Virus record (IMG/VR): IMGVR_UViG_3300040801_000780
Span: 1 to 23,075 of that record
DNA from: a virus
DNA: 23,075 bases
Reading direction: 5' to 3' (one strand)
This document shows positions 4,148-22,960 of the stretch, in pieces. The notes beneath the pieces were generated by a model that saw only the letters and a list, made by a program, of their open reading frames with translations, was not told the origin of the DNA and did not search any database. The position numbers and the translations under genes are program-made. Position 1 is the first letter of the stretch, and every line of letters starts with the position of its first letter.

Positions 4148-4789
4148 CTACCAATCCATATTATAAGGTTTTTTGCACCAACCACGCCGAATAACTTCTG
4201 CCATGGCTACGCGTTTGAACGCTGAGTTCCAAGCCTGATCTCCTTGAATAGCTTGTGGCCCAAGACGTTTCATCTTACTGTGTAAAACTAATTGTTCTCT
4301 AAAGAACTCATTAAATATATCATTGTAGGGCATACTGGCAGAAGATGCCAGATCACCCGTCTTCTTATGATACTGTATAATAAGGTCTGTGTGTATCTGA
4401 TCAGCGCCGGCAGGGAATATAATCTTACGATTGTGCAGCGCCCATATCCAAGGACGCTCGGACGTACTCCGAAACTTTGCGTAATACCAGACCACATCGA
4501 CCGATCTTTTCACAAGTTGGTCCTGTCCCAACCACACTTCTGTGACACTCTGCCACAGCCCTGAGTTAAGGGCTGCGGAGAGGTCAACGTAAGCTTGGTC
4601 GGCAACAGTGTCGATTCCTGTCTCGATCTCTTTAGTGAGATCAGAGTTCATAGCAGAAAGAGTCGCATCCATGATCTCGAACATACGGTTCAAATAGACC
4701 AACAACTCTTCATCGGAGAATACAATACCAGTGTCATAATCGGTTAAATCATATCTCGCCGCCGTTATCAGACTCGCTAGTGTCGCCAT
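4148..4789 (-). CDS. Head-tail adaptor-like protein, first copy (213 aa)
   Basis: The start was set at MATLASLITAARYDLTD (4789), with GGAG 9 bases upstream. The longer frame to 4813 adds eight residues without a better site. The N-terminus has the adaptor pattern: two short helices, then FSDEELLVYLNRMFEIMD, comparable with FWTDAEITYWIQEG in the next gene. A WIWALHNRKIIFPAGAD segment follows in the middle. The start overlaps the end of the YkgJ-like gene by 41 bases, so expression is probably coupled. The predicted role is a ring protein between portal and nozzle. Two similar adaptors in tandem suggest either two stacked rings or divergence after duplication. The basic C-terminus (RRGWCKKPYNMDW) could contact DNA or portal; that is inference. 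Confidence 0.62.
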   Translation of the reverse strand: MATLASLITAARYDLTDYDTGIVFSDEELLVYLNRMFEIMDATLSAMNSDLTKEIETGIDTVADQAYVDLSAALNSGLWQSVTEVWLGQDQLVKRSVDVVWYYAKFRSTSERPWIWALHNRKIIFPAGADQIHTDLIIQYHKKTGDLASSASMPYNDIFNEFFREQLVLHSKMKRLGPQAIQGDQAWNSAFKRVAMAEVIRRGWCKKPYNMDW

Positions 4790-5138
4790 TATTTTTGTCT
4801 CCAAACATTTCATTTAGTAGAATCTTTGATTCTTCCACCTGTCGTAAAATATCTTTCTGATTCTGATCACACTTCTGAACACACAAGTATCGTTCGCAAA
4901 CTGCTGCTTTCTTTTCAGGTTGATCATACACGAGACAACCCTTTTCCCAGTCAGCATACCGGCATGGAGTTTCCAAATAAATGCTCCAATACCGGCTCTC
5001 ACCACTGTACATCAGCGGTACATTCTTGAGCCACAATAGTTTCAAATGATCGTGATCAGGATTAATTGGTACACAAGAGTAGCGACAGCACTGCTGGCAC
5101 TTCATACAAATCTCTTGCTGTTTAGTTAGTTCAGTCAT
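4749..5138 (-). CDS. YkgJ-like Cys-rich metal-binding protein (129 aa)
   Basis: Ten cysteines occur in the first 90 residues: C11, C14, C17, C18, C22, C59, C68, C81, C86 and C90. The CxxCxxCC signature near residues 11-18, the later TPC...GCLVYDQ and the final VCERYLC all match the YkgJ family, annotated as zinc- or iron-chelating proteins of unknown reaction. The C-terminal 40 residues are acidic and look disordered (DTSESDNGG). An AAGGGGG ribosome binding site lies 5 bases before the ATG. The gene sits inside the structural operon between the 330-aa protein and the adaptor pair and overlaps the adaptor start. Whether it is a virion part or an intracellular metal-binding factor cannot be told. 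The family call is fairly firm; the function is unknown. Confidence 0.72.
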   Translation of the reverse strand: MTELTKQQEICMKCQQCCRYSCVPINPDHDHLKLLWLKNVPLMYSGESRYWSIYLETPCRYADWEKGCLVYDQPEKKAAVCERYLCVQKCDQNQKDILRQVEESKILLNEMFGDKNNGDTSESDNGGEI

Positions 5139-13975: not shown

Positions 13976-14161
13976 CTATATAATTTTTGTATAGTGCAGA
14001 TATTCTCCGCACCAATCGCCGTAGCGTACCGGATGTTTACGAGGATACCGCCGACACCATAGAAGTTTACATTCTTTTGGCGTTGGTGTGATCTGATCCA
14101 TCTTTCTATTGTACGCACAGTTCCAGCACCCAGCTTTGGGTGGTATTTTAGGGACAGGCAT
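13976..14161 (-). CDS. Cys-rich mini-protein with DWCGEY motif (61 aa)
   Basis: Five cysteines are present: C12, C15, C31, C36 and C51. The pattern CxxC-x15-C...C...GDWCGEY resembles small phage and bacterial proteins that end in a WCGEF/Y motif and are thought to bind a metal. The protein is basic (pairs of K and R around residues 19-20 and 37-42) and fully hydrophilic. AAGGAGA lies 5 bases before the ATG, inside the loop of a possible 6-bp hairpin whose arm reaches the start codon. The next gene starts 10 bases on. Function is not known. Confidence 0.68.
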   Translation of the reverse strand: MPVPKIPPKAGCWNCAYNRKMDQITPTPKECKLLWCRRYPRKHPVRYGDWCGEYLHYTKII

Positions 14162-15525: not shown

Positions 15526-15915
15526 TTATTTCACCGTATCCGTATAGTCACTAAGTTCGTACCAAATTTGATTCTCCATAACACGTACTATCTGGTGCTC
15601 TGGCCCCATATTACTGTTATCTGTAGGACTTATTGGAGCTAAAAATAGGTGAACACTCTCATGGAATGCCACCTTATCCATTTGTCTCTTTGTGACTGGC
15701 ACATCCCACGTTGTACACAGCTTAACCACAGCCATCCCATCCGCGTATCCCGCTGCAATGGAGGCATAACAATTGTCCTCTGGTACCTCTTGGGTGTGTA
15801 TCTCCCACAGCTTGTCACATCCCCAAAACTCGCACCATATTGCAAACTGTCTCCAAAAGAATTTGGCTTGCGCCTTCGTAACCTTATAGGTCTTCTCTTT
15901 CTTTGCACTTTCCAA
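15526..15915 (-). CDS. Zincin-like putative metallopeptidase (129 aa)
   Basis: Residues 81-92 read KVAFHESVHLFL and contain the HExxH zinc-peptidase motif (H85, E86, H89). A conserved-looking EHQIVRVMEN follows, where E106, H107 or E114 could be the third metal ligand. This is the layout of short gluzincin-like or SprT-like domains. The start is TTG (15915) with GAAGGG 10 bases upstream; no ATG is available near the N-terminus. It overlaps the 69-aa Cys-rich gene by 32 bases. No signal peptide is seen, so it acts in the host cytoplasm or in the virion. Possible roles are processing of phage or host proteins. The motif is clear; activity is not proven. Confidence 0.65.
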   Translation of the reverse strand: MESAKKEKTYKVTKAQAKFFWRQFAIWCEFWGCDKLWEIHTQEVPEDNCYASIAAGYADGMAVVKLCTTWDVPVTKRQMDKVAFHESVHLFLAPISPTDNSNMGPEHQIVRVMENQIWYELSDYTDTVK

Positions 15916-16093
15916 GGTGATTTTTCCCTTCTGGAGTTTGATAAAACATACGACCTAACCTGCCCATATGGGAATTACCCGGGGCAAGACATCGCATCCG
16001 TCCCTCGATCTTAGCACTAAGCTGCAGGTATTTACATCCCTGACACTTGGTTTCTCCGTACAAATGTGTGTAGTCGTTCTTAGGACCATTCAT
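15884..16093 (-). CDS. Cys-rich mini-protein (69 aa)
   Basis: The ATG has AAGGA 8 bases upstream. Cysteines C17 and C20 (TKCQGCKYL), C35 (MRCLAP) and C63 (GKCKERE) could bind one metal ion. The rest is hydrophilic and basic, with a GNSHMGRLGRMFYQ stretch in the middle. The 3' end overlaps the zincin gene by 32 bases, so both are likely made from one coupled unit. The layout, Cx2C near the start and two lone Cys later, resembles the 61-aa gene further along the operon, but the sequences do not align well. No function is assigned. Confidence 0.62.
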   Translation of the reverse strand: MNGPKNDYTHLYGETKCQGCKYLQLSAKIEGRMRCLAPGNSHMGRLGRMFYQTPEGKNHLGKCKEREDL

Positions 16094-18533: not shown

Positions 18534-19082
18534 ATGGCTATTCAAAAAGTGTATCGTAAATCAGTTGACAGAATTGATGCCGATGGTAAGAAAGTCCTTA
18601 ACAATGCTGGCAAGTGCAAACAAGATGTAACCTATCACGCCACTTTCGAGACGGTGACAAAAACCGTTCGTGGTGCCGAGCGTGAATACAACGTCGGAAC
18701 TGGACCTGCCATCATGTCAAAGGAAGATCCGAGCAAAAACTGCCCCGTCGTGGTTCTCGAACGCGGTGTCTATGCTAACGTTGACAGTATGAGTGACCTT
18801 GAACTGTTTAACCATAAATCAGTCACTAATGTTCGCCGACTCATTCAACCTGAATTCGAGAAGGTTTTGACCGCCATCGACGTCATGGTGAAGCGGCTTG
18901 AAGGAAATGGTATCCTTGTCAATAATGCAGTGCGCGATGCAATCGTCACTCACTGCGCCGCGCGGTTCGACCGTCTTGACACCGCTCTAATCAATAGTGT
19001 TACGAAATACGAAAATCCTACCGCAAGAATTCGCAAGGCCAAAGTGGAAATGCCGGCTCTGCCAGTATCCGCGAAGTCCTAA
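18534..19082 (+). CDS. First early protein, unknown function (182 aa)
   Basis: The start ATG has AGGAG 9 bases upstream. The protein begins MAIQKVYRKSVDRIDADGKK. Residues 30-75 are strand-rich (DVTYHATFETVTKTVRGAERE, CPVVVLERGVYANV) and residues 80-160 are helical (NVRRLIQPEFEKVLTAIDVMVKRLEG). It ends in a basic, Ala/Pro-rich tail (ARIRKAKVEMPALPVSAKS). It is the only gene between the control region and a strong intrinsic terminator, so it is a separate transcription unit, probably produced in large amounts soon after infection. The strand-then-helix layout with a basic tail would suit a nucleic-acid-binding or host-takeover protein, but no family was recognised. Codon use is richer in GC than the small genes that follow. 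Confidence 0.75.
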   Translation: MAIQKVYRKSVDRIDADGKKVLNNAGKCKQDVTYHATFETVTKTVRGAEREYNVGTGPAIMSKEDPSKNCPVVVLERGVYANVDSMSDLELFNHKSVTNVRRLIQPEFEKVLTAIDVMVKRLEGNGILVNNAVRDAIVTHCAARFDRLDTALINSVTKYENPTARIRKAKVEMPALPVSAKS

Positions 19083-19099
19083 CATATCCTCATATAAAG

Positions 19100-19132
19100 C
19101 CGAGCGCCCGAAAGGGCGTTCGGTTCTTTTTT
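19100..19132 (+). terminator. Strong intrinsic terminator after the first early gene
   Basis: Arms CCGAGCGCCC and GGGCGTTCGG form 10 pairs (one G-U) around a GAAA tetraloop, followed by TTCTTTTTT. It starts 17 bases after the stop of the 182-aa gene. This is a textbook Rho-independent terminator and separates the first early unit from the second. Confidence 0.9.
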
Positions 19133-19179
19133 AATTCTGTTATCGTGTTATTAGGTAGCAGGATTAAATGAGAACCGAA
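19119..19179. repeat. 8-bp inverted repeat linking terminator and next leader
   Basis: TTCGGTTC (19119-19126), part of the terminator 3' arm, is the exact reverse complement of GAACCGAA (19172-19179) in the leader of the next unit. In read-through RNA the two could pair and open the lower part of the terminator stem. Confidence 0.35.
19133..19158 (+). promoter_or_regulatory. Rightward early promoter-like motif, copy 2
   Basis: AATTCT, 5 bases, CGTGTTATTA, 2 bases, TAG, in the same spacing as at 18453. It lies directly after the intrinsic terminator and about 45 bases before the next gene, the expected place for re-initiation of transcription. No good sigma-70 hexamers are seen in this copy, so it may be read by a modified or phage RNA polymerase. 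Confidence 0.5.
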
Positions 19180-19203
19180 CCATAAGGGAAAGGAGAATAC
19201 GCC

Positions 19204-19431
19204 ATGCAATCAGGACTGGACATTATCGTGGTCAATGACTGTTATCCTCAATTTGAACACTTGCAAGAATCGTCATTATTTTGTGAGGAGCCGGATGGCG
19301 ATACCATCTCTGAAATTATCGCTGATGAAATGTCGCTTGAAATTCAGATCATCAACTATTTTGGCCCTGAGTATGTACCTGATTTAAACATCTTTCTGGA
19401 AGGGGTGCGCGATGGCATTTCAAGATTCTGA
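19204..19431 (+). CDS. Very acidic small early protein (75 aa)
   Basis: By count it has 16 Asp/Glu and 2 Arg, with no Lys. It begins MQSGLDIIVVNDCYPQFEH and contains CEEPDGDTISEIIADEMSLE. A single His, two Cys, and no membrane segment. AAAGGAGAA lies 7 to 8 bases before the ATG. The end overlaps the next gene by 20 bases. Strongly acidic small proteins made early in infection are often inhibitors of host nucleases or polymerases, including DNA mimics; here this is inference from charge and position only. Confidence 0.68.
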   Translation: MQSGLDIIVVNDCYPQFEHLQESSLFCEEPDGDTISEIIADEMSLEIQIINYFGPEYVPDLNIFLEGVRDGISRF

Positions 19432-19621
19432 TATTCGACAATTATGGCGTGAATCAGTCAAGCGGATTGACCGCGTGTCGTCTAAAGACTTTGCCGAGTC
19501 AAGCCATGCCAATGAGCGCAAGGGAAACGGCTTGACATACGAGCAAGCGGAAATCAAATACGGATTGCGTGTTTCACAAGCTGGATACAGCATAATTAGG
19601 AGACGCCCAAATGGAAAGTAG
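19412..19621 (+). CDS. Small basic early protein (69 aa)
   Basis: It begins MAFQDSDIRQLWRESVKRID and ends RVSQAGYSIIRRRPNGK. It is basic, with a helical first half and a middle LTYEQAEIKYGLRVSQAGYS segment that has the look of a short DNA-binding helix pair, though no HTH family can be named. The segment LWRESVKRID resembles VYRKSVDRID near the start of the 182-aa protein. It overlaps both neighbours (20 bases upstream, 11 bases downstream), so translation is coupled. GGAAGGGG precedes the ATG by about 6 bases. Confidence 0.65.
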   Translation: MAFQDSDIRQLWRESVKRIDRVSSKDFAESSHANERKGNGLTYEQAEIKYGLRVSQAGYSIIRRRPNGK

Positions 19622-19943
19622 CAAGCAAGTATTCGACGGATATTGCTGTCCTCATTGTGGTGAGCGGCAAACTAATATGATTAAAAAAGCGTTCAAACCA
19701 GTGTATCACTGTATGAGGTGCGGCCATGAAACGCCGAACCATTTGCTGAGAATGACCACGGTTCAAGTCAACCCGTCTCATTGGAGCAATAAACAGTGCG
19801 GTGTTATCGTGAATCCCGACAAAATGTCCTATGACGAAATACCGGGTGAGTGCGTGTTCGATCATATCCGGCAGATGCGTGTCAAAATAGATACCGAACG
19901 TTCGACTGGTCATCAACCTTTAAAAGCGTACAAGCGCGGATAA
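19611..19943 (+). CDS. Zinc-ribbon early protein (110 aa)
   Basis: The N-terminus has YCCPHCGERQ and YHCMRCGHE (C13, C16, C34, C37; C12 is extra), a Cx2C-x17-Cx2C zinc ribbon. Such ribbons bind nucleic acid or mediate protein contacts. The second half (residues 48-110) has LRMTTVQVNPSHWSNKQCG and a basic end (LKAYKRG) and no recognised domain. AGGAGA lies 7 bases before the ATG, which sits inside the upstream gene's last codons. Two hairpins follow the stop. A role as transcription factor or adaptor is possible. Confidence 0.7.
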   Translation: MESSKQVFDGYCCPHCGERQTNMIKKAFKPVYHCMRCGHETPNHLLRMTTVQVNPSHWSNKQCGVIVNPDKMSYDEIPGECVFDHIRQMRVKIDTERSTGHQPLKAYKRG

Positions 19944-19995
19944 ATCCCGCTTACCGATATAGATAGCCCTACGGAGTTTTCTCCGTGGGGTTATC
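19932..19995 (+). terminator. Tandem hairpins after the zinc-ribbon gene
   Basis: The first hairpin spans the stop codon: AAGCG-(C)-GGAT against ATCCCGCTT with one bulge. The second is long: arms of 15 bases at 19962-19976 and 19981-19995 around TTTT, with two G-U pairs. Only TGTATTTG follows, so termination may be partial. The pair probably marks an mRNA end or processing point between two groups of small genes. Confidence 0.6.
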
Positions 19996-20038
19996 TGTAT
20001 TTGTAAGATGGCGTAACTCTAACATCGGAGGTGCTAAT

Positions 20039-20197
20039 ATGAAAGATTTTGATTGGTTTAATACAGGAGTTATAGGCATCATTCTATATGCTACGGGTGG
20101 TATTGGAACAGTGGTTATTTTCGCACTCTATGTGCTGCTTATTTATGATGATATGTTGAAACTATACACCAAACTCACAGCAAAGGAGGATTTATGA
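20039..20197 (+). CDS. Small single-helix membrane protein (52 aa)
   Basis: The start was set at MKDFDWFNTG because CGGAGGTGC lies 6 bases upstream; a longer frame would begin inside the preceding hairpin. Residues 9-36 are one long hydrophobic helix (GVIGIILYATGG then VIFALYVLLIY). The C-terminus is charged (LTAKEDL). The stop overlaps the next ATG as ATGA. Small early membrane proteins of phages often act on host membranes or exclusion; no specific role is visible. Confidence 0.65.
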   Translation: MKDFDWFNTGVIGIILYATGGIGTVVIFALYVLLIYDDMLKLYTKLTAKEDL

Positions 20198-20346
20198 AAA
20201 TTAAACTCGTTATTGGTAAGAAAGCGAATGAGAAGCTAGTAGCTATGTTTAACATGGCGTGGAGCAGGAGTGTTGAGCCGAAAGTTACCGAACAGTACAA
20301 TGAAAAACTGGCTGTGACTTACGGTAAAAAATACGGTTGGAAATAG
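20194..20346 (+). CDS. Small basic protein (50 aa)
   Basis: The frame is MKIKLVIGKKANEKLVAMFN and onward to YGKKYGWK before TAG. It has AGGAGG 4 to 5 bases upstream and starts inside the stop of the membrane-protein gene. It is Lys-rich with short strand then helices, without Cys or membrane parts. The family is not recognised. The excellent ribosome binding site and tight fit support that it is real. Confidence 0.6.
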   Translation: MKIKLVIGKKANEKLVAMFNMAWSRSVEPKVTEQYNEKLAVTYGKKYGWK

Positions 20347-20353
20347 CCGAATT

Positions 20354-20387
20354 TATCCGTCTGATAGAGTCACTTATCGGGCGGATA
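20354..20387 (+). other. 13-bp hairpin between small genes
   Basis: TATCCGTCTGATA (20354-20366) pairs with TATCGGGCGGATA (20375-20387) over 13 positions including two G-U pairs, with an 8-base loop. No U-run follows. It starts 8 bases after the stop of the 50-aa gene. It resembles in place and size the hairpin at 19962-19995, so these may be shared processing or stability elements. Confidence 0.55.
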
Positions 20388-20419
20388 GGTGCGTCTAACT
20401 TCAACCTATAGGAGGTATT

Positions 20420-20659
20420 ATGGCGACTATTAAGAAAGCTGTGTGCAAACCTGTGATTGTGTATGATGCGGTGGAAGAGTCATTTTGGCCTGAGATTTAC
20501 GAAAACATGGACGCAGCTATGAAAGTTATTCAGCAGGAAACTGATGAATATGACGAACAAGATTTAATCGAGCTGGACTTGGCTATCTATGAGGTTAAAC
20601 TGGTTCGATCTGTGTCTGCAAGTTGCACATGGAAATTAGAGATTAATGAGGAAGATTAA
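20420..20659 (+). CDS. Acidic small early protein (79 aa)
   Basis: ATAGGAGGTATT precedes the ATG, a very strong site. By count it has 19 Asp/Glu against 7 Lys/Arg. The start MATIKKAVCKPVIVYDAVEES is followed by helices (NMDAAMKVIQQETDEYDEQDL) and strands (IELDLAIYEVKLVRSVSASC). The strand-helix-strand order suggests a compact alpha-beta fold. No family is recognised. It is another candidate host-takeover protein by charge and location. Confidence 0.65.
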   Translation: MATIKKAVCKPVIVYDAVEESFWPEIYENMDAAMKVIQQETDEYDEQDLIELDLAIYEVKLVRSVSASCTWKLEINEED

Positions 20660-20674
20660 TACTCGATTTACGGG

Positions 20675-20688
20675 ACAGTGGTTATTTT
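20675..20688 (+). repeat. 14-base repeat of the membrane-protein gene (second copy in a gap)
   Basis: ACAGTGGTTATTTT at 20675-20688 is identical to 20108-20121 in the 52-aa membrane gene. In the same frame the gap would read GTVVILAIHANL, against GTVVIFALYVLL of the gene. The 68-base gap between the 79-aa and 76-aa genes may therefore carry the remnant of a duplicated membrane gene. Alternatively it is a shared regulatory word. Confidence 0.4.
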
Positions 20689-20727
20689 GGCTATCCATGC
20701 TAATCTGTTTAATGGAGGTATTAAGCC

Positions 20728-20958
20728 ATGCAGCATAACACATTTACAACGCACACATTCACATTTACCGAACGTGAAGCACAAAGCATTTGGGCATTGA
20801 TTAATGGACTGACTGTCAACAATATGCAAGAGGCTATCATTGGTTCGGCTTCAAGCATTGAGGATGAAACATTCAGTGATAAGTGTGCAATGGATACGCT
20901 GATTGACATTCAGAATTTCCTTGGTAACTACTTTGACATAGAGGAAAATAATAGATGA
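20728..20958 (+). CDS. Acidic small protein coupled to the radical SAM gene (76 aa)
   Basis: The ATG (20728) has GGAGGT about 12 bases upstream. It begins MQHNTFTTHTFTFTEREAQS, then helices (QSIWALINGLTVNNMQEAII, KCAMDTLIDIQNFLGNYF) and ends DIEENNR. It is acidic (about 12 D/E, 3 K/R). Its stop overlaps the radical SAM start as ATGA, so the two are made in step. That coupling makes it a possible partner or substrate of the enzyme, but it lacks the typical leader-and-core look of a modified peptide precursor. Confidence 0.65.
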   Translation: MQHNTFTTHTFTFTEREAQSIWALINGLTVNNMQEAIIGSASSIEDETFSDKCAMDTLIDIQNFLGNYFDIEENNR

Positions 20959-21908
20959 GACACTCACTGTATTGGGACGATTTCAGCCGTCGTGTCAATG
21001 AGACAGTGGAGACACTCAACGCAGGTTATCGTCCGCCTATTCGTCGTGTTGCGGTGTTCATTACCGAAAGGTGCAACTTTCGTTGTGCCTATTGCAATGC
21101 TGGTATCACTGGCAAGGTATTGAGCGAGGATAATTTTAACCGTATTGTCGATCATTATGGCAAGGATGCAATTATCCATGTAACAGGTGGTGAGCCGAGT
21201 GTGGTGCCATGGTTTTATGAGTGGCTGCGTGGTTATGGTAAAAACTACCAAATCCATTTGAACACTAATGCGTATATCACGCCACCGGCTGAACATTTGA
21301 AGCGCATCAAGATCTCATTGGACTCTTACAAACCTGAGTATTGGAATGCATTGGTTAACCGATCGGGTGCATTTGAGCGGGTGGTTGATAATATCAAGTA
21401 TGCATCTAAACGCTCAGTGACGACAATTACCTGTACGCTGAATCATGAAAACTTTCGGGATGTAATACCATTTATCCAATTCTGTCAATGTGCATTCCCG
21501 GATTTGTACGCGACGTTCTTTTCGATTTACAAAGGGACAAATCCTCGGTTCATGATTACCGATGCAGATGCTCAGGAAATATTCAATGAATATATTCCAA
21601 TGATGCTCCGTATCCTTGATCCTGAATCGGCAGCCTTGCTGTCTGAGACAGTCGATGAAAAACGGCGACTGACCCAAGGAGTGCGTTTTGAGCAGAATGC
21701 TGTAAATGGTCCTTGCTATCTGTCCATGAGTGAGCGAGTGATTAATCCTGATGGACAGGAATTTACCTGTTCGCATCTCTATCGTGATGGTATCAACATG
21801 GTCGCTCCGTATAAACATACGAAATGTCAGTACGGATGCAATCGTCGGTTATGTGCTTTTAACGAGGAAGTGGAGAAACGACTCAATGACAAAATACACG
21901 TTTCTTGA
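20955..21908 (+). CDS. Radical SAM protein with C-terminal cysteines (317 aa)
   Basis: C40, C44 and C47 in ERCNFRCAYC are the CxxxCxxC motif that binds the catalytic [4Fe-4S] cluster. VTGGEPS (76-82) is the GGE motif for S-adenosylmethionine. HLNTNAYI (101-108) and IKISLDSYKPEYW (118-130) are later strands of the partial TIM barrel. The C-terminus holds C254, C272, C291, C295 and C300, spaced like a short SPASM or twitch domain that may bind an extra cluster. Enzymes of this layout cut S-adenosylmethionine to a 5'-deoxyadenosyl radical; many modify peptides or proteins. It is about 100 residues longer than QueE and lacks viperin motifs. It is coupled to genes on both sides. The substrate cannot be told. 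Confidence 0.85.
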   Translation: MRHSLYWDDFSRRVNETVETLNAGYRPPIRRVAVFITERCNFRCAYCNAGITGKVLSEDNFNRIVDHYGKDAIIHVTGGEPSVVPWFYEWLRGYGKNYQIHLNTNAYITPPAEHLKRIKISLDSYKPEYWNALVNRSGAFERVVDNIKYASKRSVTTITCTLNHENFRDVIPFIQFCQCAFPDLYATFFSIYKGTNPRFMITDADAQEIFNEYIPMMLRILDPESAALLSETVDEKRRLTQGVRFEQNAVNGPCYLSMSERVINPDGQEFTCSHLYRDGINMVAPYKHTKCQYGCNRRLCAFNEEVEKRLNDKIHVS

Positions 21909-22053
21909 CGATGAGAATAAACTGATTCGTAAATTGGTTGTGCGTAAAAACAACTGGATGCACAAGCTATGGCTTCAACAATCTATGGAGATGCATTTCA
22001 AACGGCATCCAAATGGAACGATTATCAGCGAAGTCGTAAATGGAGATGATTAG
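21886..22053 (+). CDS. Small basic protein overlapping the radical SAM gene (55 aa)
   Basis: The ATG lies 23 bases inside the radical SAM gene, with a GTGGAGAAA site about 10 bases upstream. The protein reads MTKYTFLDDENKLIRKLVVR and continues KNNWMHKLWLQQSMEMHFKRHPNG, ending SEVVNGDD. It is basic with Trp and Met residues. No domain is recognised. Its coupling to the enzyme gene makes it the second candidate partner. A longer frame upstream exists but lies wholly in the enzyme gene. Confidence 0.6.
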   Translation: MTKYTFLDDENKLIRKLVVRKNNWMHKLWLQQSMEMHFKRHPNGTIISEVVNGDD

Positions 22054-22054
22054 T

Positions 22055-22204
22055 ATGGACAACTCCGAATTGAAAAAGCTATTGAAAGACCATCTTCAAA
22101 TCGTAGTAACTGAGCAATATATTCAGTGGGATACTGAGATTACTATTCGTTTATTATATGACGATGAGGTAATTTCGTATGATACTTTTGTTATCGAAAG
22201 CTAA
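22055..22204 (+). CDS. Small acidic protein (49 aa)
   Basis: The start MDNSELKKLLKDHLQIVVTE is followed by strands (YIQWDTEITIRLLY, VISYDTFVIES). The ATG comes one base after the previous stop, with GGAGATGAT upstream as a ribosome binding site. A helix plus a beta-hairpin is suggested. No family is recognised. Confidence 0.6.
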   Translation: MDNSELKKLLKDHLQIVVTEQYIQWDTEITIRLLYDDEVISYDTFVIES

Positions 22205-22215
22205 AGGGTGATTAA

Positions 22216-22320
22216 ATGATGTTATTTATGGGAGTTTGGGGAATAGGGTTGTTATTTTTCCTATTCATCGCAATCTGTGAACTGTGGAAATTACACAAAT
22301 ATGGCCCGGATCATGGGTAA
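22216..22320 (+). CDS. Tiny membrane protein (34 aa)
   Basis: The reading frame MMLFMGVWGIGLLFFLFIAI has one hydrophobic helix (residues 2-20), then CELWKLHKYGPDHG. AGGGTG lies about 6 bases before the double ATG. Its size, the helix and the basic C-terminus fit small phage membrane proteins. The next gene begins after 11 bases. With 34 residues the call rests on the site, the helix and the tight packing. Confidence 0.5.
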   Translation: MMLFMGVWGIGLLFFLFIAICELWKLHKYGPDHG

Positions 22321-22331
22321 AGGATGGTGGT

Positions 22332-22520
22332 ATGCTGCAATTCAATGGTGATTGGCGAGAGCTGGCAGACGCGAAACGGGTAAGCCTATTTAAATTCATC
22401 AACAATGAATGGCGTCTGTTCGATTTTGGAGTTGAACCCCTTACCGACAAATATATCGAGAAAGGACATATGGTTCGGAAATTTGAGAAAGGAGACAAAC
22501 TCGGTGACATCGCAATATAA
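22332..22520 (+). CDS. Small protein of unknown function (62 aa)
   Basis: The start was set at MLQFNGDWRELADAKRVSLF, with AAAGGA 7 bases upstream. The frame stays open upstream to 22284, but that part overlaps the tiny membrane gene. The protein looks like a small all-beta unit: WRELADAKRVSLFKFINNEWRLFDFG, then EKGHMVRKFEKGDKLGDIAI. The 3' end overlaps the next gene by 17 bases. No family is recognised. Confidence 0.6.
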   Translation: MLQFNGDWRELADAKRVSLFKFINNEWRLFDFGVEPLTDKYIEKGHMVRKFEKGDKLGDIAI

Positions 22521-22779
22521 ACACATTCGTCAACAAATCGCGCAAGCATTGTTTGAGGCATCCTTGGCAGTTCGTAATATTAACAATCCTTGTGATTTGG
22601 ATGCTGCCTTGGTAATTGTCAAAAATGCGTTGACCTCTGCTCGTGAGGAATTGTTCCCCAAAGAAGCGGAGATTATCGAAGCTGAAATCATCATTGAGCC
22701 AAAGGAGATTGATTATGAGTGTTCTAACTCGTGCGGAAAAACGTGTCCTTCGGCTATTGAACGAGAACGTACCTCTTAA
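22504..22779 (+). CDS. Small helical protein with a GTG start (91 aa)
   Basis: The start was set at GTG (22504), 9 bases after GGAG and inside the previous gene; an ATG at 22405 would overlap that gene by over 100 bases. The protein, (M)TSQYKHIRQQIAQALFEA onward, is helical (LDAALVIVKNALTSAREEL) then acidic (PKEAEIIEAEIIIEPKEID). The C-terminus has CSNSCGKTC, a possible metal-binding cluster. It overlaps the following gene by 65 bases. Confidence 0.55.
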   Translation: MTSQYKHIRQQIAQALFEASLAVRNINNPCDLDAALVIVKNALTSAREELFPKEAEIIEAEIIIEPKEIDYECSNSCGKTCPSAIERERTS

Positions 22780-22960
22780 ACAAATCGAGGAGGATATTTA
22801 CAAACAGTTCGAAGGCCAGCGGGTACCAAACGAATATCTGCAAGCCATCAAACGCGGTGTCTATCTTGAACAGGAATTGCAACGCAACGTGAAACAAGAG
22901 AGCTACGAATCTCGCAACTGGCGTGAGCAATATAACGCTGGAAAGGCCAAAAGACACTAA
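22715..22960 (+). CDS. Small basic helical protein (81 aa)
   Basis: The ATG has AAAGGAGA 7 bases upstream and lies inside the previous gene. The sequence MSVLTRAEKRVLRLLNENVP continues LKQIEEDIYKQF, a helix-turn-helix-like start, and ends in a charged helix (YLEQELQRNVKQESYESRNW) with a KAKRH tail. The first 45 residues could form a small DNA-binding unit of the LxxxEKRVL--L-(N)-P---IA/E type seen in LuxR-like HTHs. That match is weak. Confidence 0.62.
   Translation: MSVLTRAEKRVLRLLNENVPLKQIEEDIYKQFEGQRVPNEYLQAIKRGVYLEQELQRNVKQESYESRNWREQYNAGKAKRH

Follow-up and report, generated by a model that had tools for sequence, protein, structure and literature searches.

Radical SAM genes have been reported in phages for years without an assigned function (PMC2853527, PMC5332604). 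In Campylobacter phages, radical SAM genes of unknown role have been proposed to form a non-essential, exchangeable module (PMC2853527), and the role of those carried by marine T4-like phages is not known either (PMC5332604). Some radical SAM enzymes have, next to their catalytic barrel, a twitch domain that holds one auxiliary cluster (PMC9012708). The cluster of BtrN is ligated by four cysteines and has been proposed to take up an electron during a two-electron oxidation, whereas that of MoaA is ligated by three cysteines, has an open site and binds GTP (PMC9012708). In the literature searched, nothing was found on radical SAM enzymes in phage DNA hypermodification, nor on BlsE clusters.

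The window described here, i.e., the whole stretch of DNA that was analysed, is an entire IMG/VR virus record of 23,075 bases, in which ORF calling identified a radical SAM ORF of 317 aa. With a little less than even confidence, we read its product as a phage-restricted, stand-alone twitch radical SAM enzyme, a portable cargo that may oxidize a substrate from the host by two electrons, in the manner of BtrN. The gene has the following features:

20955-21908 (+): radical SAM enzyme, 317 aa, putatively of a phage-restricted twitch subfamily (Pfam, 21-sequence alignment, AF2 model)
20964-21005 (+): family-specific N-terminal motif S-L-Y-W-D-D-F-x-x-R-x-x-E-T, residues 4-17, with W7, D8, R13 and T17 invariant (alignment)
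21072-21095 (+): CxxxCxxC, radical SAM cluster ligands C40, C44 and C47 (invariant, 21/21)
21183-21197 (+): TGGEP, SAM-binding motif, residues 77-81 (invariant, 21/21)
21714-21770 (+): C254-x12-G267-x4-C272, first half of a putative twitch-like auxiliary cluster site (invariant, 21/21)
21771-21788 (+): S-H-L-x-R-D, family signature directly after C272, with S273, H274, L275, R277 and D278 invariant (alignment)
21825-21839 (+): C291-x3-C295, second half of the putative auxiliary cluster site (invariant, 21/21)

Membership of the superfamily follows from the match to Pfam Radical_SAM PF04055 (1.4e-16; 61.5 bits, with a cut-off of 29.5). The CxxxCxxC and GGE motifs reported in an earlier note on this DNA are present as C40-C44-C47 and inside T77-G-G-E-P81. 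Relatives were gathered by successive searches of viral contigs, resulting in an alignment of 21 non-identical sequences, in which the relatives are 33-58% identical to the window protein. Across these sequences 42 residues are invariant, including the four N-terminal positions listed above, H75, E260, G267, N296 and N303, as well as CxxxCxxC, TGGEP, SHLxRD and the four late cysteines. The tree of family members contains three groups. The linker between the cysteine pairs is longer in one of them (L006, L057, L081, L083 and L084) and short in the group of the window. Between close relatives, dN/dS is 0.03-0.12, which indicates that the enzyme is kept under purifying selection. Judged from its invariant residues and low dN/dS, the ORF is far beyond chance. 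One family member (L056:7995-8935) is split by a frameshift into parts of 214 and 103 aa, by decay or assembly error, and was excluded from the alignment. Two other carriers, L002 and L003, come from different metagenomes and are identical in DNA over the compared 2.9 kb; they represent one phage seen twice.

A twitch domain has a single auxiliary cluster site, recognizable by C-x(9-15)-G-x4-C and a second cysteine pair. Both C254-x12-G-x4-C272 and C291-x3-C295 are invariant in the family. The earlier note had pointed to five late cysteines (254, 272, 291, 295 and 301), of which the first four are invariant in all 21 sequences and C301 is variable. The spacing of these four residues suggests a single auxiliary cluster and supports its assignment of the enzyme to the radical SAM proteins that have a short cluster domain of the twitch type. 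A SPASM domain with two auxiliary clusters was rejected, as there are only four conserved C-terminal cysteines and Pfam SPASM PF13186 has no match in the window protein; a weak match occurs in 2 of 12 members, at best 3e-4. The AlphaFold (AF2) model of the enzyme has a pLDDT of 84 and a pTM of 0.84, with a confident barrel. Confidence is low at residues 246-250 and 289-292, so that the model does not show how the second cluster site is built. Among the solved structures listed, Foldseek gave the best E-value to the peptide-binding enzyme SuiB and the highest TM-scores (0.63/0.61) to BlsE.

The family is, as far as the sequence searches reached, found in viruses alone. Its model scores 254-549 bits in the 18 phage records, apart from the split copy, whose two parts give 312 and 151 bits. 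Cellular radical SAM proteins from six bacterial genomes, picked for remote similarity, reach at most 58 bits and match over the core only. Short patterns taken from three sequences, when scanned against 84,980 species genomes, yielded just those remote relatives. In 395 genomes of one phylum, there was no family match at 1e-20, and the same model recovers all 18 phage records. These cellular searches have a limited reach, with one phylum sampled by the model, and rare prophage copies could escape them. In the annotated phage collection, the matches were remote only, with at most 31% identity. The carriers themselves differ widely. The GC content of 17 enzyme-carrying phage records ranges from 0.31 to 0.56. 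The capsid protein of the window resembles those of Burkholderia phages such as BcepIL02, that of L001 is T4-like, the polymerase of L002 resembles that of Myxococcus phage Mx1, and the terminase of L005 is of a different type. Terminase relatives of the window (L021 and L022) are short fragments that were judged, without alignment, to end before the enzyme locus.

No companion gene follows the enzyme across these phages. Among the predicted proteins of at least 60 aa in 17 phage records, it is the only family common to more than four records; the next families occur in four. As the records were chosen for carrying the enzyme, its count of 17 is by design, and the informative part is that no companion appears. 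Several records are fragments, which makes a missing partner in any one of them weak, and the argument rests on the whole set. The window has nothing in common with the other records besides the enzyme in this comparison. A protein relative is shared within 5 kb in 13 of 231 pairs of enzyme-bearing contigs; three of these 13 pairs join near-identical contigs, and the window belongs to none of the 13. The immediate neighbours differ in every lineage outside three near-identical contigs, and those in other lineages include a KTSC domain protein, a Dam methylase, an exonuclease, an RlaP-like nucleotidyltransferase and a DUF4326 protein. The RlaP-like gene adjoins the enzyme in L088 (L088:6958-7725). 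A nucleotidyltransferase-like family, present in 4 of the 17 records (G005, G008, G012 and G015), is, together with one other family, the most widely shared after the enzyme. In L083, a QueE-like radical SAM gene lies two genes upstream of the family member (L083:4304-5017), giving this contig two different radical SAM genes.

In the window, the enzyme gene lies between two small genes:

20728-20958 (+): 76-aa acidic protein, pI 4.2, upstream of the enzyme; not a conserved partner (ORF calling, comparisons)
21886-22053 (+): 55-aa basic protein, pI 9.2, downstream of the enzyme; not a conserved partner (ORF calling, comparisons)

The arrangement was described correctly in the earlier note. The upstream protein is acidic and the downstream one basic, the TGA stop of the 76-aa gene overlaps the ATG start of the enzyme (ATGA), and the 55-aa gene shares 23 nt with the 3′ end of the enzyme gene. 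Shine-Dalgarno-like sequences precede all three genes alike. About 13-14 small rightward ORFs occupy positions 18534-22960, and the enzyme has the sole Pfam match above family cut-off among the ORFs scanned there. Of the small genes scanned in this region, just the one for a 49-aa protein (22055-22204, +) matches a sequence family below 0.001; the match is to PHROG 6906, a family of unknown function, at 9.6e-5, and a further one is to PHROG 9568. Promoter matches in the region are at chance level only. A strong terminator-like hairpin with a T run (19098-19125, +) lies directly 3′ of a 182-aa gene, which may thus be a transcription unit separate from the small-gene operon. Elsewhere in the window, the late genes include small cysteine-rich proteins (4749-5138, 13976-14161 and 15884-16093, all -), one with CxxCxxCC, and a 129-aa protein (15526-15915, -) has an HESVH motif, like the HExxH of metallopeptidases; none of these has a Pfam match.

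From these elements, a mechanism can be proposed. C40, C44 and C47 would hold a [4Fe-4S] cluster at which SAM is cleaved to the 5′-deoxyadenosyl radical, and this radical would take a hydrogen atom from the substrate. A second [4Fe-4S] cluster, with C254, C272, C291 and C295 as its full set of ligands, would sit in a twitch domain of reduced length. This cluster may position the substrate, accept the second electron, or both, resulting in a two-electron oxidation as in BtrN. Since none of the other phage genes accompanies the enzyme, both substrate and electron donor are proposed to come from the host. The enzyme is the sole gene common to 17 otherwise unrelated phage genomes; for this reason, it probably acts on something that every host supplies and not on the adjoining small phage proteins. 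Between a small host metabolite of the sugar or nucleotide type and a conserved host protein, our analysis slightly favours the small molecule, because of the fold, which resembles BlsE, and the putative single twitch cluster with its four cysteines. A more speculative extension is that the gene could be a single-gene, phage-specific tool, acquired independently by many unrelated phages, with which they change, in the course of infection and without a phage partner, a single metabolite or protein that is conserved in all hosts.

The main rival, that the same stand-alone enzyme modifies a conserved host protein or peptide and serves host takeover or counter-defence by post-translational modification, is rather unlikely in our estimate. 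SPASM-type enzymes act mostly on peptides or proteins, the best structural matches include SkfB and SuiB, and a conserved host protein would equally explain a spread without a phage partner. However, the four conserved late cysteines leave no second auxiliary cluster, and neither the enzyme nor the scanned neighbours have a Pfam match to a RiPP recognition element, although divergent elements can escape Pfam. A RiPP maturase system was rejected, as no precursor-type ORF (at least 12 aa, within 1.2 kb) is conserved across lineages; the only exception among such short ORFs is one pair unrelated in position and size. The earlier note had proposed modification of a small phage or host protein, with the 76-aa and 55-aa proteins of the same operon as candidates. 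The translational overlaps on both sides would fit such a neighbour as target, but small genes commonly overlap in the operons of phages, and once relatives are compared the overlaps look normal for an early region and count for little. Neither protein occurs in the five other records searched, no relative of the 76-aa protein turned up in the viral collection, and other lineages have unrelated neighbours. The neighbours thus vary freely while the enzyme stays, an outcome set beforehand as counting against the coupling, and modification of either protein has become very improbable.

Comparably improbable is a viperin-like enzyme making modified nucleotides. Viperins are among the fold matches, and the PADLOC pVip model matches at 3.9e-12, but only over residues 32-168, the core common to the superfamily. 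The viperin model NF038283 reaches 30.8 bits against a cut-off of 180, and the four extra invariant cysteines have twitch spacing. A role in nucleic-acid or queuosine-type modification, to which the QueE-like gene of L083 and the Dam methylase adjoining the enzyme in L002 would point, is hardly more credible, as neither context is recurrent; a link to 7-deazaguanine was rejected, with QueC in only 2 of 18 records. QueE itself was rejected as an identity of the enzyme (phrog_2076, E 0.023; TIGR03963, 20 bits versus 260), as was NF033640 N_Twi_rSAM (38.4 bits versus a curated cut-off of 170). Among the NCBIfam models listed, none scores above its cut-off for the window protein, and what the earlier note had named as its other counter-evidence, a firm grouping of the enzyme with one from a known nucleotide or cofactor pathway, was not seen with these models.

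With its defined signature and strong purifying selection, the family offers a clean test case for phage radical SAM genes, and the evidence points to a search for the target in the host, not among the adjoining phage genes. Among known systems, Campylobacter phages CP220/CPt10 and other phages likewise carry radical SAM proteins (PHROG 1802); these give a distant profile match of 57 bits, but they are about 22% identical to the window enzyme over part of the core only. MoaA (GTP 3′,8-cyclase; PDB 2fb2) is the best sequence match of the core with 61 bits. It is nevertheless a poor model, because its GTP-binding cluster is ligated by three cysteines and keeps one site open, versus four invariant cysteines here, and NCBIfam TIGR02666 gives 61.1 bits against a cut-off of 284. 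The SPASM peptide maturases SkfB, SuiB and CteB have a similar fold and a partial twitch/SPASM layout, whereas the phage family comes without a found precursor peptide, RiPP recognition element or second cluster site. BlsE (PDB 7vob) leads the listed solved structures in TM-score, with a match along almost the entire length, but it is 16% identical and is a biosynthetic enzyme of a bacterial antibiotic pathway. The BtrN-type twitch oxidases are alike in pattern, with a radical SAM barrel and four cysteines near the C-terminus that could provide every ligand of one auxiliary cluster (PMC9012708 for BtrN); the phage family differs from them in its shortened linker between the cysteine pairs, its own N-terminal and CSHLxRD motifs, and its occurrence in phages only.
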